From Sutterella wadsworthensis 2_1_59BFAA (GTDB lineage Bacteria; Pseudomonadota; Gammaproteobacteria; Burkholderiales; Burkholderiaceae_F), in contig NZ_JH815514.1 in the NCBI RefSeq assembly GCF_000297775.1, forward strand, positions 1 through 32,242: a DNA stretch of 32,242 nt. The letters run 5' to 3'. Position 1 is the stretch's first letter. Each line of letters begins with the position of its first letter. Shown here in pieces: positions 18,767 through 24,716 of the stretch. The notes under the pieces are model-generated. The model made no database searches. It was not told the DNA's origin and saw only the letters and a program-made list of their open reading frames with translations. Position numbers and translations under genes: made by a program.

Positions 18767-19399
18767 ATGTCCAGCAAAACGATTTTCCTTGCGAGCAAGA
18801 GCCCGCGCCGCCGCGACCTGCTCACACGCCTCGGCTACGACGTTCGCGTCATCGCGAGCAACGCCCATACGCTCATGGCCTTCGAGGGCGACGAAGTCGT
18901 CCTGCCCGACGAGGCGCCCAAGGCCTACGTGCTGCGCACCGCGCGCAACAAGTTCCTTGAGGGCCTCGGCGTCAAGAACGCGGGCGAGTTCGCGGGCGTG
19001 CGCCTGCCCATCGTCGCCGCCGACACCGTCGTGAGCCTCGGCAACGAGATCCTCGGCAAACCCCGCGACTTCGACGAGGCCTGCCTCTTTCTCGAAAAGC
19101 TCTCCGGCCGCACCCACGACGTGCGCACCGCCGTCTACGTCGGCCTCTCCGAAACGGCCTGCGACTGGCGCATTTCGCACTCCACGGTGAGCTTCCGCGA
19201 GCTCACGCACGACGAAATCGAGGCCTACGCCAACAGCGGCGAGCCCTACGACAAGGCGGGCGGCTACGGCATCCAGGGCCTTGCGAGCATCTTCATCTCG
19301 AACATTTCGGGCAGCTACACCGGCATCATGGGACTCCCCGTTTACGAGACGGCCGAGCTCCTCGCCAATGCGGGCCTTCCCGTGTTCAATGCTCAATAA
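18767..19399 (+). CDS. maf: Maf-family nucleotide pyrophosphatase (YhdE type)
   Basis: A nucleotide-sanitising enzyme that hydrolyses dTTP, UTP and modified forms to monophosphates. The 210-residue protein has LASKSPRR (8-15), the ADT motif (in IVAADTVVSLG), and GEPYDKAGGYGIQG followed by GSYTGIMGLPVYETAELL, all typical of the YhdE branch. The ATG at 18767 is chosen because it puts the family's N-terminus in place; an upstream in-frame ATG at 18722 lies inside rlmH. It is the last gene of the operon; ribonuclease G (rng), often next, is absent. Confidence 0.93.
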   Translation: MSSKTIFLASKSPRRRDLLTRLGYDVRVIASNAHTLMAFEGDEVVLPDEAPKAYVLRTARNKFLEGLGVKNAGEFAGVRLPIVAADTVVSLGNEILGKPRDFDEACLFLEKLSGRTHDVRTAVYVGLSETACDWRISHSTVSFRELTHDEIEAYANSGEPYDKAGGYGIQGLASIFISNISGSYTGIMGLPVYETAELLANAGLPVFNAQ

Positions 19400-19415
19400 G
19401 TCGACCTGTTGCAAA

Positions 19416-19459
19416 CAGTCATGAAAAAAGCCCGCTGACGCGGGCTTTTTTCATGACTG
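19416..19459. terminator. Bidirectional terminator between maf and the FKBP gene
   Basis: A perfect 20-bp stem (19416-19435 with 19440-19459) with loop TGAC. The core GCCCGC/GCGGGC is flanked by A6 on one side and T6 on the other, so it can end the plus-strand maf transcript and the minus-strand FKBP transcript alike. Confidence 0.93.
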
Positions 19460-19481
19460 CCGAAGCGGCCTCAATCCGGTC

Positions 19482-19820
19482 TTAGTAGACCTTCACGAGC
19501 TCGACTTCGAAGATGAGCGTAGCGTTGGGCGGAATGCAGCCCGGGACGCCGTAGGCGCCGTAGCCGAGATGAGCGGGGATCGTAAGGCGGCGCTTCTGGC
19601 CTTCGCGCATGCCGACGACGCCCATGTCCCAGCCCTTGATGACCATGCCGACGCCGCAGACGAACTCGAGCGGCTCGCCGCGATCAAGACTGGAGTCGAA
19701 CTTCGTGCCGTCCTCGAGCCAGCCCGTGTAGTGTGCGGCGATCGTATCGCCCTTCATCGCCTGACGGCCGGTGCCTTCGGCGAGTTCCTCGATCTTGAGA
19801 TCTTTCAATTCTTCCTGCAT
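19482..19820 (-). CDS. FKBP-type peptidyl-prolyl isomerase
   Basis: A cytoplasmic cis-trans prolyl isomerase of 112 residues, a single minimal FKBP domain with no signal peptide. Visible active-site elements are AHYTGWLEDGTKFDSSLDRGEPLEF (about 29-53), VIKGWDMGVVGMREGQKRRLTIPAHLGYG (60-88) and the C-terminal strand TLIFEVELVKV. GAGGG lies nine bases before the ATG. It is a single-gene unit, divergent from the pseudo-helicase gene. Its clients are unknown. Confidence 0.93.
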   Translation of the reverse strand: MQEELKDLKIEELAEGTGRQAMKGDTIAAHYTGWLEDGTKFDSSLDRGEPLEFVCGVGMVIKGWDMGVVGMREGQKRRLTIPAHLGYGAYGVPGCIPPNATLIFEVELVKVY

Positions 19821-20193
19821 GGGTGTAGCCCTCGTGTGTAGGTTGCTGATGACACAATCTTACAGCGTCAAGCCGTTGCTCTGGCAACAGGGATGCATTC
19901 GACGTTTCCGCCGTGTACAATGAATGCGCCGTCCGACAAGCCTTCACCGTCGGACGCGATGACCTTCAGCCTGCCATCCCGCAGATCCGCCTCCCTTCGC
20001 ATCAGAGGGCACGCGGAACGGACCGCGGCGCACACCCGCGCGCCCGCAGACACTATTCCTGACAGGCTGCTCCCGCACGCCACAGCGTTTTGGCGGGCAC
20101 ATCCGATTTCGATTCCGCATACACCCAACCGACGCGAAGGGGCGCCCTCTTCTTTTCCGCGCATTCCGTGTCGGCGTGCATTGCTCAAGAACG
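19821..20193. other. Divergent region between the FKBP and pseudo-helicase genes
   Basis: 373 bases. A possible -10 box TACAAT (19916-19921) faces the pseudo-helicase gene, which would give a leader of about 265 bases; long leaders are common for DEAD-box helicase genes. Minus-strand TTGCCA and TGTAAG boxes may serve the FKBP gene. A minus-strand frame (19868-20200) is open but its third-base composition is unlike the neighbours and it has no ribosome binding site. Confidence 0.45.
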
Positions 20194-22323
20194 ATGACAA
20201 AAGACGAAAAAATCTCGAATTTCGAGCGCGTGCTGTCCTGGCTGCCCGAAGCCTTCAAGAGCTGGGCGACCTCCAATCCGTTTCTCTCCAGCACCCTCAA
20301 CGAAGTCCTGAACGAACGCGACACGCGCCTCTCCGGCACGCCCTGCACGTCCCGCCTCAAGACCGCGGTAACGGCCCTGCTGCAGAAGCTTCAGGACCGC
20401 CGCGACAAGAGCGCCGCCCTGATTCTCGCCGCCTCGCGCGAAGCCGAGGAGACCGCCTTCACGCTGGCCTCCCGCATGTCCGAGGGCACCGGCCTCAGGA
20501 TCGCCGCCACGACGGGCGTGCGTGACGGCGCAGGCCTCGCCGCCATCTTTGCCACCGCACCCGACCTCGTCGTCACGAATCCCAAGGTGCTGAAAAAGGT
20601 CTTCGACAAGGGTTTCGTAGCCCCCGAAGCCTTCCGCACGATCCTCGTCGACGGCGCCGAATGGCACGACGTCATGGGCGACACGGACCTCATCGCTTCG
20701 CTCGTCGAGCGCTTTCCCGCCGCCCTCCAGCTGATCGTGACGGGCCCCGTCGTCGTTGAGACAACCGAGGACCCCTACAACGCCATGCTGCACGCCCCCG
20801 CCTACTGCAGGGCGCCCGACGAGGCGGCGCGTGAAACCGCCCCCAAGGAACGCGTGGTACTCGTACCCGAAGAGAAGATGAGCGAGACACTCGCCCGCGA
20901 GGCTGAAAAGACGCCCGTACTCTTCCTGGTCTCGACCCCTACCGAAAGCACCCGCGTCACGGGCCTTCTCAAAGAGGCGGGCATCGCCGCCAAGCGCGCC
21001 ACCGCAACCCAGTCCGCCTCGGCCCGAGAGACGCTCGTCCTCAAGTTCATCGCAGGCCGCGTCGAGCACCTCGTCATGCCGCACTCGGTCATCGGCGAAC
21101 TCGAGCACAATCGCGCCTCCCGCGTGATCCTCACCGACCTCTCAGGTGGTCCCGAACCCTATCTCGAGCATTTGGCCCTGACGGCCGACGGCACGGGCGA
21201 GCTCGTGACGATCGTCACGCCCGAAACGCTTCCGCTCTTTGAAAAGCTCCTCGTCGCCGCCGAAAAGCGCCTGACGCTTGAAAATCCGTACAACCTTCCC
21301 GAGCCCCGCACCGTTATCGGCCAGCTTCTGCGCCGCGAAAAGCTCACGATCCGCACGAAATACGGCCGCACGGCCGAGTCCACCGAGGGCGACAGGGGCG
21401 AGCAGGACGACCGCGGCGAAGGCCGCAGCCGCTGGGAGCGCCGCAAGTCGAAGAACGGCCAGCGCAAGGACAGGAAGGATGGTTTCCGAAAGGACCGCAA
21501 GGACTTCAGAAAGGATGAGCAGGGCAAGACCTTCGGCAAGAAGCCTCGCAAGGCCGCCAAGCCCCACAGGGACGAAGCCCTCCCCGTCGAGGCCGCAGCC
21601 CCCGAAGCCGATGCCGTTATGCAGCCTCAGGCCGCTCCCGCCGAGGGCGCCGCCTCCGAGCAGGCTCAGACCCGCAAGCCGCGCAAGTCCTTCACGGAGC
21701 GCCGCTTCGGCAAGAACCGTCCCTTCAAGCAGCGTCAGGAAGACGCCGCCGAAACTTCCTCCGCACCCGTCGAGGCGCAGGCCGTCCCCGCCGCCGAAGC
21801 CGGAGCCCAGGACAAGTCCCGCAAGGACCATTTCAAGAACTTCCGCCGCAAGTCGCGCAAGTTCCAGAACGGTGAGGGCGAAGCCTCCCGAACGCAGGAA
21901 AAGCCCGTTCAGAACGCAGACTCCGAACAGGCGGCCGCAGGCGACAGGAAGCCTCAGGAAAAGAAGACCTTCGAAAAGAAGCCCTACGAGAAGAAGCCTT
22001 TCGAGAAGAAGCGCGACAGGAAGAAGCCCGCAAGGCAGGACGCCGAGGCAAAGCCCCGCCAGCAGGACTGGGACGACGACAACTTCGGCAATTCGATCCA
22101 CTACCAGCCCAAGCGCCAGAATCTCCGCGGGCTGCCCAGCGACCAGCAGATCCACTGGGAGCCGACGGATCCCTACCATCCGTCCTCCCAGGCCCTCAGC
22201 CTGCCTCAGATCATGCCCGACGAAAACCGCCGCGGCGGCTACGTCAACGGCAATGTGAACGGCAACGTGAAGGGCGGCTTCAACCGAAGCCGCAGGAACT
22301 ACCGCAAGAAGCGCGAGGGCTGA
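20194..22323 (+). CDS. DEAD-box-helicase-derived protein lacking catalytic motifs, with basic repetitive tail
   Basis: A 709-residue protein that aligns by eye with DEAD-box RNA helicases across two RecA-like domains (about 1-185 and 220-345), yet nearly every catalytic motif is changed. Motif I (AQTGTGKT) reads GTPCTSRL (48-55) within ERD...LLQKL, which aligns without gaps. Motif Ia is AASREAEE (79-86). DEAD is DGAE (153-156) in ILVDGAEWHDVMG. SAT is VTG (182-184). Motif V reads MPHSVIGELE (295-304), and motif VI (HRIGRTGR) reads EHLALTAD (325-332), so no arginine finger remains. Residues about 390-709 are a Lys/Arg-rich, low-complexity tail like those of RhlE-type helicases. ATP hydrolysis seems impossible; an RNA-binding scaffold role is inferred. 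The frame is intact with host-like codon use, so this is not a decayed gene. The ATG is chosen over an upstream GTG at 20176. Confidence 0.75.
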   Translation: MTKDEKISNFERVLSWLPEAFKSWATSNPFLSSTLNEVLNERDTRLSGTPCTSRLKTAVTALLQKLQDRRDKSAALILAASREAEETAFTLASRMSEGTGLRIAATTGVRDGAGLAAIFATAPDLVVTNPKVLKKVFDKGFVAPEAFRTILVDGAEWHDVMGDTDLIASLVERFPAALQLIVTGPVVVETTEDPYNAMLHAPAYCRAPDEAARETAPKERVVLVPEEKMSETLAREAEKTPVLFLVSTPTESTRVTGLLKEAGIAAKRATATQSASARETLVLKFIAGRVEHLVMPHSVIGELEHNRASRVILTDLSGGPEPYLEHLALTADGTGELVTIVTPETLPLFEKLLVAAEKRLTLENPYNLPEPRTVIGQLLRREKLTIRTKYGRTAESTEGDRGEQDDRGEGRSRWERRKSKNGQRKDRKDGFRKDRKDFRKDEQGKTFGKKPRKAAKPHRDEALPVEAAAPEADAVMQPQAAPAEGAASEQAQTRKPRKSFTERRFGKNRPFKQRQEDAAETSSAPVEAQAVPAAEAGAQDKSRKDHFKNFRRKSRKFQNGEGEASRTQEKPVQNADSEQAAAGDRKPQEKKTFEKKPYEKKPFEKKRDRKKPARQDAEAKPRQQDWDDDNFGNSIHYQPKRQNLRGLPSDQQIHWEPTDPYHPSSQALSLPQIMPDENRRGGYVNGNVNGNVKGGFNRSRRNYRKKREG
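21958..22017 (+). repeat. Four 15-base tandem repeats in the pseudo-helicase tail
   Basis: The units encode EKKTF, EKKPY, EKKPF and EKKRD (residues 589-608). Similar KDRKD/FRKD repeats occur at about 21466-21516, and a VNGN repeat near 22243-22268. They make the tail strongly basic. Confidence 0.8.
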
Positions 22324-22359
22324 TCCACGAGCGCCCCGCACGCCGACAAGTGTTTACAG

Positions 22360-22396
22360 AAGCGCCGGATGTTTTTACGGACATCCGGCGCTTTTT
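22360..22396 (+). terminator. Rho-independent terminator of the pseudo-helicase gene
   Basis: AAGCGCCGGATGT (22360-22372) pairs with ACATCCGGCGCTT (22381-22393), followed by T-rich sequence. Confidence 0.9.
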
Positions 22397-22470
22397 CTCT
22401 AAAATAGATCTGTTTTACCTACCCGATCGAGTTCGTCCGGCCTCCTCACACGAGGGCCGGCAGCCAGAAA

Positions 22471-22857
22471 ATGTCCGCTTCGCTTCCCGTCCGCAGTCTT
22501 CTCGCCGCCACCGCCGCCATGCTCCTGCTTTCCGCCTGCTCCACCGCCTACTACACGGGCGACACGATCAGCGGCCCCGCCCAGCGCATGAAGCGCGACG
22601 CCGACGGCAACCTGCACGACCCGCTCCTCGACGCTCCGAACCGCTCCCTGATGACGTGCACGTCCGAAGCACCCGTTACGGTGCTCCAGCGCGTGGGCGA
22701 AGTGCCCTTCGCCTGCCCCGACCTCGGCGTCTCCGCCACGCTCGACGAGCTGCGCGACGCCGGATGGCGCATTCTGAGGCTCGACATCGGCGAGGACCTT
22801 GAAAGCGACTCCCACGTGGGCTTCCCCGTCACCGTTCAGGTCCGCAAGCTCTTCTGA
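22471..22857 (+). CDS. Small lipoprotein of unknown function
   Basis: A 128-residue protein with a lipoprotein signal: hydrophobic stretch LLAATAAMLLL and lipobox LLSAC, giving a lipidated C23 after cleavage. The mature part starts STAYYTGDT and contains two more cysteines (in MTCTSEAP and FACPDL) that could form a disulfide in the periplasm. No domain is recognised. The residue after the lipid cysteine is S, which favours sorting to the outer membrane. It lies between a terminator and the aminopeptidase gene, 53 bases upstream of the latter. The ribosome binding site is weak. Confidence 0.7.
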   Translation: MSASLPVRSLLAATAAMLLLSACSTAYYTGDTISGPAQRMKRDADGNLHDPLLDAPNRSLMTCTSEAPVTVLQRVGEVPFACPDLGVSATLDELRDAGWRILRLDIGEDLESDSHVGFPVTVQVRKLF

Positions 22858-22910
22858 TGCGCCCCGCCCTGCGCAGGCTCTTCGGGACTTTCTTCATCTG
22901 AGGCATCGTC

Positions 22911-24716
22911 ATGAACCAATCGAGCGCCGAACGGCTCGGCAAATTTCGACAGACCATGAAGGACCGGGGGCTTGACGCCTGGATCGGCCGCATCGTCGAT
23001 CCGCATCTCTCGGAATACGTTCCCGAACACTGGCAGTCCGTTGCCTGGCTCACGGGCTTCACGGGCAGCACCGCCCGCCTGTGCGTGACGCAGGGCGCTG
23101 CCGCGCTTCTCGTCGACAGCCGCTACTGGGAGCAGGCCGAAGGCGAGCTCGACGGAGCGCCCTTCGAAGTCGTGAGGCTCGGTGCGCCCGACGCCCCCTC
23201 GCAGGAGGCCTGGCTTTCGCAGCATCTCACCCGCGGCCGCGTCGGCCTCGCCCCCGAACTCTGGAGCGAATCGGATGTGCGCCGCATCCGCACATCACTC
23301 GCCGACTGCGGACTTGAGCTCGCGCTCGTCCCCGATCTCTTTGACGACGTCTGGACCCAAGGCCGTCCCGCCCGTCCGCAGACCGCCGTCACCCCGATGA
23401 CGCAGGATTCCTCAACCGTTGCAGACAGGCTCGCCCGAGTCCGCGAAGTGCTTCGCGACCGCGCTAGCGAAGCCCTGTGCCTGCACTCGCTCGACGACAT
23501 CGCCTGGCTCACGGGCTGCCGTGCGGCCGACATCAAATTCAATCCCGTCTTCCTCGCGAGCATGATCGTGACCGACAGCGAGGCCCTTCTCTATACGGAA
23601 GCCTCCAGATTCACGCCCGAACTCCTTGGCGCTCTGGCCGCACAGGGCATCGAAGTTCGAGCACCCGAATCGCTCGCAGGGGACATCTCCGCGCTCTCGA
23701 GGGACCTCGTCTTCATGGCCGACCCCGACCGCCTTCCCGCCTCGATCTTCGGACTCCTCGAGCGCGTCCCCGTCGAGGCGCTCTCGCCCGTCACGCTCAT
23801 GAAGAGCCGCAAGTCCGAGGAGGAGCTCGAGGGCATCCGCCGCGCCATGGTCTCCGACGGCGTCGCGCTATGCGAATTCTACGCGCTGCTTGACGAGCGA
23901 CTCGCCGAAGGCGCCGTGCTCACCGAATCCGACGTCGCGAACATGCTCGACTCAGAACGCGCCGCACGCCCCGACAACAGGGGCCTGAGCTTCGGCACGA
24001 TCTCCGCCTTCGGCCGCAACGCCGCGCTTCCACACTATGCGCCGAAGCGCGAAACGGCCGCAGTCCTCACGGACGGGCTTCTTCTCATCGACTCGGGCGG
24101 GCAGTACGAGGCGGGCACGACCGACATCACCCGCATGACGGCCGTCGGCCGCATCGACGACGACATGAAGCGCGACGTCACGCTCGTGCTCAAGGCCCAC
24201 ATCGCGCTTGCACGCGCCGTCGTTCCCGCAGGCGTCTCGGGCTCGCAGCTCGACGCCATCGCACGCGCGCCCCTCTGGGCCAAGGGCCTCGACTTCGGAC
24301 ACGGCACGGGCCACGGCGTGGGCTGCCGCCTCAACGTCCACGAAGGTCCCTTCCACATCTCCCCGCGTGCAACGAAGACGGGCGAGCTCGGTCTCCAGGC
24401 AGGCATCCTCGTCTCCGATGAACCCGGCCTCTACCGTCCCGGCCACAGGGGCGTGCGCATCGAAAACCTGATCGTCGCCCGCAGGGCTGCGTCCACGGAG
24501 TTCGGCGAATTCCTCGCGTTCGACGTCGCAACGCTCTGCCCGATCGACCTCAGAACCGTCGATGTTTCGCTCCTCACGCCCGACGAAGTGGCCTGGCTCG
24601 ACGATTACCATGGGAAAGTCCTGACCGCCCTTCAAAACGAGGCGCTTTCTACTCGCGCACAGGCATGGCTCAAGGCCCGCACGGTCCCCGCCTTCCGTTC
24701 CAGAAACATTGTGTAA
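22911..24716 (+). CDS. Xaa-Pro aminopeptidase, M24B, large three-domain type
   Basis: A cytoplasmic metallopeptidase that removes an N-terminal residue ahead of proline. The 601-residue length and three domains match the eukaryote-like large aminopeptidase P rather than the E. coli PepP (about 440). Two creatinase-like domains occupy about 1-155 and 170-300, and the pita-bread catalytic domain about 305-535. The five metal ligands are present: D394 (LLIDSGG), D405 (TTDITR), H468 (FGHGTGHGVG), E504 (SDEPGLY) and E518 (VRIENL). GAGG lies seven bases before the ATG. It fits peptide-based nutrition. The gene is followed by the RND operon with its own promoter. Confidence 0.92.
   Translation: MNQSSAERLGKFRQTMKDRGLDAWIGRIVDPHLSEYVPEHWQSVAWLTGFTGSTARLCVTQGAAALLVDSRYWEQAEGELDGAPFEVVRLGAPDAPSQEAWLSQHLTRGRVGLAPELWSESDVRRIRTSLADCGLELALVPDLFDDVWTQGRPARPQTAVTPMTQDSSTVADRLARVREVLRDRASEALCLHSLDDIAWLTGCRAADIKFNPVFLASMIVTDSEALLYTEASRFTPELLGALAAQGIEVRAPESLAGDISALSRDLVFMADPDRLPASIFGLLERVPVEALSPVTLMKSRKSEEELEGIRRAMVSDGVALCEFYALLDERLAEGAVLTESDVANMLDSERAARPDNRGLSFGTISAFGRNAALPHYAPKRETAAVLTDGLLLIDSGGQYEAGTTDITRMTAVGRIDDDMKRDVTLVLKAHIALARAVVPAGVSGSQLDAIARAPLWAKGLDFGHGTGHGVGCRLNVHEGPFHISPRATKTGELGLQAGILVSDEPGLYRPGHRGVRIENLIVARRAASTEFGEFLAFDVATLCPIDLRTVDVSLLTPDEVAWLDDYHGKVLTALQNEALSTRAQAWLKARTVPAFRSRNIV

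Follow-up and report, generated by a model that had tools for sequence, protein, structure and literature searches.

A likely DEAD-box pseudohelicase in Sutterella, probably derived from RhlE and perhaps retained as a tail-docked scaffold

An open reading frame of Sutterella wadsworthensis 2_1_59BFAA very probably encodes a pseudohelicase, a DEAD-box protein with two RecA-like domains predicted from its sequence and with nearly all catalytic motifs lost. The window, which is the whole 32,242-nucleotide stretch of DNA analysed here, carries it on the forward strand. The best overall explanation, to which we give a probability of about 0.6, is that an ancestral RhlE-type DEAD-box RNA helicase turned into a pseudohelicase in Sutterella, at its syntenic slot, and now acts as a scaffold docked through its tail. 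To judge by sequence and model, the residues for ATP binding and hydrolysis and the motif VI arginines are gone while the two-RecA fold is kept. The gene and its core are as follows.

20194..22323, + strand: putative rhlE-derived pseudohelicase, 709 aa (open frame, homology, synteny)
20194..21333, + strand: two predicted RecA-like domains, residues 1-380, catalytically eroded (AlphaFold2, Foldseek, dN/dS)

An earlier note on this DNA had described an uninterrupted 709-codon frame with host-like codon use over a DEAD-box core. The frame is indeed open throughout, between the ATG at 20194 and a stop codon that ends at 22323, and orthologues align from the same start. GC3 is 0.83 in the core and 0.85 in the tail, inside the range of 0.81-0.91 spanned by five neighbours. 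Pfam DEAD matches residues 56-180 of the protein (E 3.3e-4, 20.9 bits against a cut-off of 26) and NCBIfam DbpA residues 29-397 (E 1.4e-8, 33.7 bits against a cut-off of 524), with further NCBIfam matches to CshA (E 7.5e-6) and RhlE1 (E 5.3e-5). Among PDB sequences, CshA (5ivl) matches over 29-370 at E 2.9e-6 and DbpA (7pli) at E 1.3e-5. Judged by sequence, the likeness to DEAD-box helicases is above chance, though every curated cut-off is missed. Structure prediction, a check that the note had proposed, points the same way. AlphaFold2, run on residues 1-400 with a 12-row alignment, predicts two RecA-like domains (pLDDT 82, pTM 0.80), in a model that is not independent of motif-retaining RhlEs, which make up 5 of the 12 rows. 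Foldseek with this model found 1053 PDB chains with E no higher than 0.001 (best E 4.6e-19; Dbp2 8arp, TM 0.72, rmsd 3.9), many of the top rows having TM 0.43-0.57 and a large rmsd. Among the best 50 of the 1053, the named chains are DEAD-box proteins and the others are chains of large complexes, spliceosome and ribosome-assembly, unnamed in their titles. The core from S. wadsworthensis DSM 14016 gave a weaker model, again with a DEAD-box fold (pLDDT 76, pTM 0.53; 841 chains within the same E limit). It is hardly conceivable that the helicase likeness is spurious: the Pfam and NCBIfam matches do lie under curated cut-offs, but NCBIfam, PDB sequence, predicted fold and synteny are all concordant.

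To follow the catalytic motifs, we scored 63 motif residues with the syntenic RhlE of Dakarella massiliensis as reference. The window protein keeps 14 of them, and the changes in motifs I, II, III and V and in the motif VI arginines that the note had listed hold up. The other five outgroup RhlEs keep 61-62 of 63 relative to this sixth. The Q motif reads NPFLS where the Dakarella protein has TPVQQ, motif Ia ASREAE for PTRELA, and motif Ib NPKV for TPGR. The remaining motifs were located by alignment.

20335..20358, + strand: motif I remnant, GTPCTSRL for AQTGTGKT (GSPGSGKI in the G056 orthologue)
20650..20661, + strand: motif II remnant, DGAE for DEAD (DEAE in G056)
20743..20751, + strand: motif III remnant, GPV for SAT
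21076..21105, + strand: motif V remnant, MPHSVIGELE for ATDIAARGLD
21160..21189, + strand: motif VI remnant, YLEHLALTAD for YVHRIGRTGRAG

The P-loop GxGKT, DEAD at motif II, SAT at motif III and HRxGRxxR are all absent. The Utp25 paper recognises a pseudohelicase by sequence, structure and function. The first two features are present, as vestigial motifs in the sequence and, in the predicted model, a helicase-like structure; for the third, a biological role without catalysis, the purifying selection described below is indirect support.

The same slot was compared across 12 Sutterella genomes. Its protein keeps most motifs in two and is eroded in ten, S. wadsworthensis included, and these ten retain 12-18 of the 63 residues. 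The two exceptions, G060 and G061, keep 48 each, with motifs I ANTGSGKT, II DEGD, III SAT and VI HRVGRTSR, and are also fast-evolving (39-40% identity to the Dakarella reference). The eroded proteins form two clades, B (G056, G058 and the window, G000) and C (G052-G055, G057, G059 and G062). The counts are 12 in G056 (GSPGSGKI, DEAE), 12 in G058 and 14 in the window for clade B, and for clade C 18 in G054, 17 in G055, 16 in G052, 14 each in G059 and G062 and 13 each in G053 and G057, read from an alignment that is uncertain in places at 15-20% identity and in which G054 fits badly from motif IV onward. Of the seven clade C proteins, six keep GxGK and none shows DEAD at motif II, with VDEF just past the aligned column in G062 such that DE could survive in a shifted alignment; HRxGRxxR is kept in 0/10 eroded proteins. 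The P-loop remnants are GxGKT in G052, G053, G054 and G055, GSGKI in G057 and G056, and GAGKL in G062; G057 still has ARGL at motif V. G056 still combines GSGK with DEAE, so clade C appears to have lost motif II independently of the loss of motifs I and II in the window and G058.

At the level of clades, we asked whether there was one decay or two, and neither of the two trees that we built gives a supported order of the three clades. With flanking proteins, the best tree joins A+B without support (40/4.6) and the alternatives are not rejected (AU p 0.49 and 0.49); with rpoB added, A+B is again joined without support (68/48) and the alternatives again stand (AU p 0.23 and 0.32). The L001-type paralogue rows of a quick tree place clade A outside the others (SH-aLRT 96), pointing to B+C.

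It could be argued that the protein is still nucleotide-dependent with altered motifs, at least in the species that keep a P-loop. GxGK-type P-loops in G052-G055, G057, G062 and G056 fit this, as does Pfam DEAD scoring over its cut-off for four relatives (L127, L134, L135 and L138). However, the P-loop lysine is gone from the window protein, and motif VI HRxGRxxR is missing from every eroded genome. We find such an activity improbable.

The descent of the gene was addressed through its locus. The slot rlmH-maf-(fkbp)-X-lipoprotein-pepP is filled in 12/12 Sutterella genomes (group g1), with X between maf and the lipoprotein-like gene, followed by pepP, in each. An fkbp gene is matched beside it in 8/12, the exceptions being G053, G059, G060 and G061. 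In the window the neighbours are:

19482..19820, - strand: presumed FKBP-type peptidyl-prolyl isomerase
22471..22857, + strand: presumed small lipoprotein-like gene
22911..24716, + strand: presumed pepP-like aminopeptidase

In Mesosutterella/Dakarella (g15) and in group g4, a motif-intact RhlE occupies this slot in the six genomes read (G044, G045 and G048 of g15; G011, G013 and G015 of g4); no ORF was listed there for the g4 stretches G012 and G014. From a slot shared with the motif-intact RhlE of sister genera and a shared tail profile, we infer a canonical RhlE as the ancestor of the window gene. A quick tree puts G060/G061 within a 13-row clade together with the g15/g4 syntenic RhlEs (SH-aLRT 96), but their branch measures 1.56 and pairs with the long row L041, a placement that carries a long-branch warning. 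A genus-specific duplication as the origin is out, since both RhlE types already exist in sister genera, the L001-type in 9/10 g15/g4 genomes searched.

Several other features of the locus were recorded. In G054 and the six g15/g4 stretches read (L057, L091-L096) the fkbp neighbour matches as a tandem pair or triplet, in the window as a single copy. An acrB-like neighbour in G056 (L066, 9750-12000) matches in several pieces and may be broken or misassembled. At 164-1480 of the window (- strand) lies an ORF for a putative IS110-type transposase. Rfam at gathering scores gave no match in 19300-23000, and the sole sigma-70-like site found in 19800-22500 is downstream of the ORF.

Selection on the eroded core is best read in the closest pair of orthologues, G052/G055. 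Its dN/dS there is 0.146 (bootstrap 0.10-0.21; 0.140 in a second cut), against 0.009 for the core of the motif-intact L002-type paralogue, and the middle and tail of the same protein give 0.228 and 0.087. Compared with a motif-intact helicase the eroded core changes faster, and it is far from neutral where dS is readable. Nor is its value peculiar, as pepP (0.115) and nadD (0.110) of the same pair are similar; the other neighbours give 0.016 (purD), 0.011 (lipo), 0.040 (rlmH) and 0.060 (maf). The dN/dS test on orthologues that the earlier note had called for thus came out as purifying, not neutral, in relatives. For the window itself, paired with G056, the core gives 0.22 (bootstrap 0.00-0.33; second cut 0.239, 0.15-0.34) and the tail 0.070, rough values at a near-saturated dS of 1.6-1.9; dS with G058 was not computable. 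With dS saturated or nearly so in the window pairs, the clean result comes from another clade. The L001-type core gives 0.086 in G000/G056, and L001-type cores share 90% (G000/G056) and 91% (G000/G058) identity, compared with 51% and 61% for the pseudohelicase cores. Identity in G052/G057 is 30% for the pseudohelicase core (dN/dS 0.43, 0.00-0.62) and 93% for the L001-type (0.060). In G060/G061, where motifs are mostly kept, dN/dS is 0.086 for the core, 0.28 for the middle and 0.36 (0.14-1.08) for the tail. Purifying selection on the core is equally compatible with a new enzymatic role.

The same data bear on whether this is simply a dying gene, redundant with a second RhlE and drifting towards loss. 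Its core dN/dS is about 15 times that of the motif-intact paralogue in G052/G055 and about 3 times in G000/G056, as such a gene might show. Frames of orthologues, which the note had made a further test, are uninterrupted in 11/12 genomes, over 599-1293 codons; the twelfth, from a dog-gut MAG (G058; L016/L130), has an in-frame stop between core and tail, and this may be an assembly fault, as there are ambiguous bases nearby. Set against decay are those unbroken frames, the bootstrap range of the closest pair, the retention of a C-terminal FGNSIHY in all 12 genomes, and a conserved block in clade C that is strong nowhere else in the family. Loss in progress seems quite improbable to us.

Beyond the core, the protein continues into a basic region and a conserved end.

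21331..21354, + strand: RREKLTIR, short motif at the core end (alignment)
21355..22071, + strand: K/R-rich variable linker, presumably disordered (composition)
22072..22113, + strand: conserved tail motif DDDNFGNSIHYQPK (tail comparison)
22156..22224, + strand: conserved tail motif WEPTDPYHPSSQALSLPQIMPDE (tail comparison)

LTIR follows the core in 10/12 Sutterella genomes; G060/G061 have LTVK at a different spacing, perhaps by chance, and no LT[IV][RK] was matched in the five outgroup RhlEs examined. The middle part of the linker is 34% identical to that of G056, with dN/dS 0.47. What had been described as a long RhlE-like basic tail is there as a K/R-rich region, and the description can be refined: the tail carries conserved motifs and, in two of the three pairs measured, has been preserved better than the core. 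Pfam and NCBIfam gave no match to the window protein's tail. A profile of it matches in 23/67 family genomes, made up of 12/12 in g1, 5/5 in g15, 5/10 in g4 and one weak match among 9 in g2. With up to 21 candidates scored per genome, it matched in 2/300 genomes of the order, both of the same family. In g4, FGNSIHY is altered to FGNR in G011 and G015 and was not found in G013.

Clade C proteins are longer, at 889-1293 aa (the start of G054 being uncertain). LTIR in them is preceded by a stretch whose net charge is -24 to -109 and followed by a conserved block. This block, RRTLTIR...ITEPLSSNTVELRAAQ...LTHQMVG (L057, L059-L063, L134-L138), is matched strongly in 7/67 family genomes, and there in this protein alone. 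We considered it as a docking motif common to other proteins (RRTLTIR...ITEPLSS...THQ) and rejected this, all seven strong matches being clade C pseudohelicases. A further 12 rows, taken up to E 0.1, match weakly, at best with E 1.9e-4 (G032).

The note had also proposed looking for RhlE paralogues, and motif-intact ones, active to judge by their motifs, do exist in Sutterella genomes. Two motif-intact DEAD-box paralogues were found in 10/12 and one in the other two. The L001-type RhlE occurs in 11/12 and was not seen in the G055 assembly; the L002-type likewise occurs in 11/12 and was not seen in G056, which is 79% complete. As the L001-type is also found in 9/10 g15/g4 genomes searched (not in G014), the redundancy is older than the decay. 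A further possibility is that the pseudohelicase regulates an active paralogue, its core pairing with the L001-type RhlE or competing for that protein's partners. The presence of the L001-type in 11/12 genomes of the genus is consistent with this, and pseudoenzymes have been reported as activators, inhibitors, switches or scaffolds (PMC9539457). However, the two share no tail, the profile matching once in each of the 12 Sutterella genomes, and the G055 assembly has the pseudohelicase where the L001-type was not seen. We regard a regulatory role as unlikely.

We return to the tail-docked scaffold, which, taken as a function, has in our judgment an even chance of being right. Selection for a non-enzymatic job, as the earlier note suggested, is supported by the predicted RecA folds and the purifying selection on the core in relatives. 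The window protein would no longer unwind RNA or hydrolyze ATP, and catalysis would fall to the RhlE and DeaD-like paralogues whose motifs are intact. Its core would be a folded platform for binding proteins and its conserved tail would dock onto a partner. Motifs Ib and V contact RNA in DEAD-box proteins, and because both are changed here, the RNA-binding role that had been suggested looks unlikely through the old helicase surface; through the basic tail it is possible. RNase E may be named as one candidate partner because the C-terminal region of Pseudomonas aeruginosa RhlE2 is reported to be necessary and sufficient for RNA-dependent RNase E interaction (PMC11964227), a contact that maps to the N-terminal part of RNase E. 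This is a guess by analogy and a doubtful one. RhlE2 resembles our protein as an RhlE type with a partner-binding C-terminal region, but it is described there as an RNA helicase, and the likeness drawn here is one of description.

PriA is a DNA helicase and not a DEAD-box protein. That of Deinococcus radiodurans is reported in PMC4504706 as a bacterial helicase without ATPase that keeps contact with its partner, DnaB, much as we propose, with the difference that its case was demonstrated by biochemistry. Utp25/Def, a pseudohelicase of the SSU processome, likewise has a predicted DEAD-box-like fold with vestigial motifs and was proposed as a helicase cofactor or scaffold; in contrast, it is eukaryotic and essential, its disordered part is N-terminal, and its motifs were tested by mutation (PMC9539457), whereas the window protein is known from sequence and prediction. 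The same 2022 paper names only one pseudohelicase known to its authors before their own Utp25, the D. radiodurans PriA. The Mesosutterella/Dakarella RhlE (L091-L093, L131-L133) shares the slot (checked for L091-L093), the two-RecA plan and an FGNSI[HN]Y tail, but has intact catalytic motifs and, in G044 and G045, no LTIR match.

Reports of a bacterial DEAD-box pseudohelicase were not found among CC-licensed PMC papers, and ours would be one of few examples in bacteria of a helicase kept for a purpose other than catalysis. Annotation by domains alone would overlook some of its orthologues, since two of eight relatives scanned, from S. wadsworthensis DSM 14016 (L136) and G059 (L137), had no Pfam match up to E 0.1. 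For the family as a whole, we would put at even odds a natural series, with living intermediates, that leads from active helicase to scaffold: catalysis was lost stepwise, the ATPase motifs probably at least twice, and docking borne by the tail, with newly evolved motifs, became the function. Because motif-intact, partial and nearly motifless proteins occupy one slot, the order of losses is testable, as is a role that survives without catalysis. In RhlE proteins, a role in docking through the tail would thereby be told apart from helicase activity.
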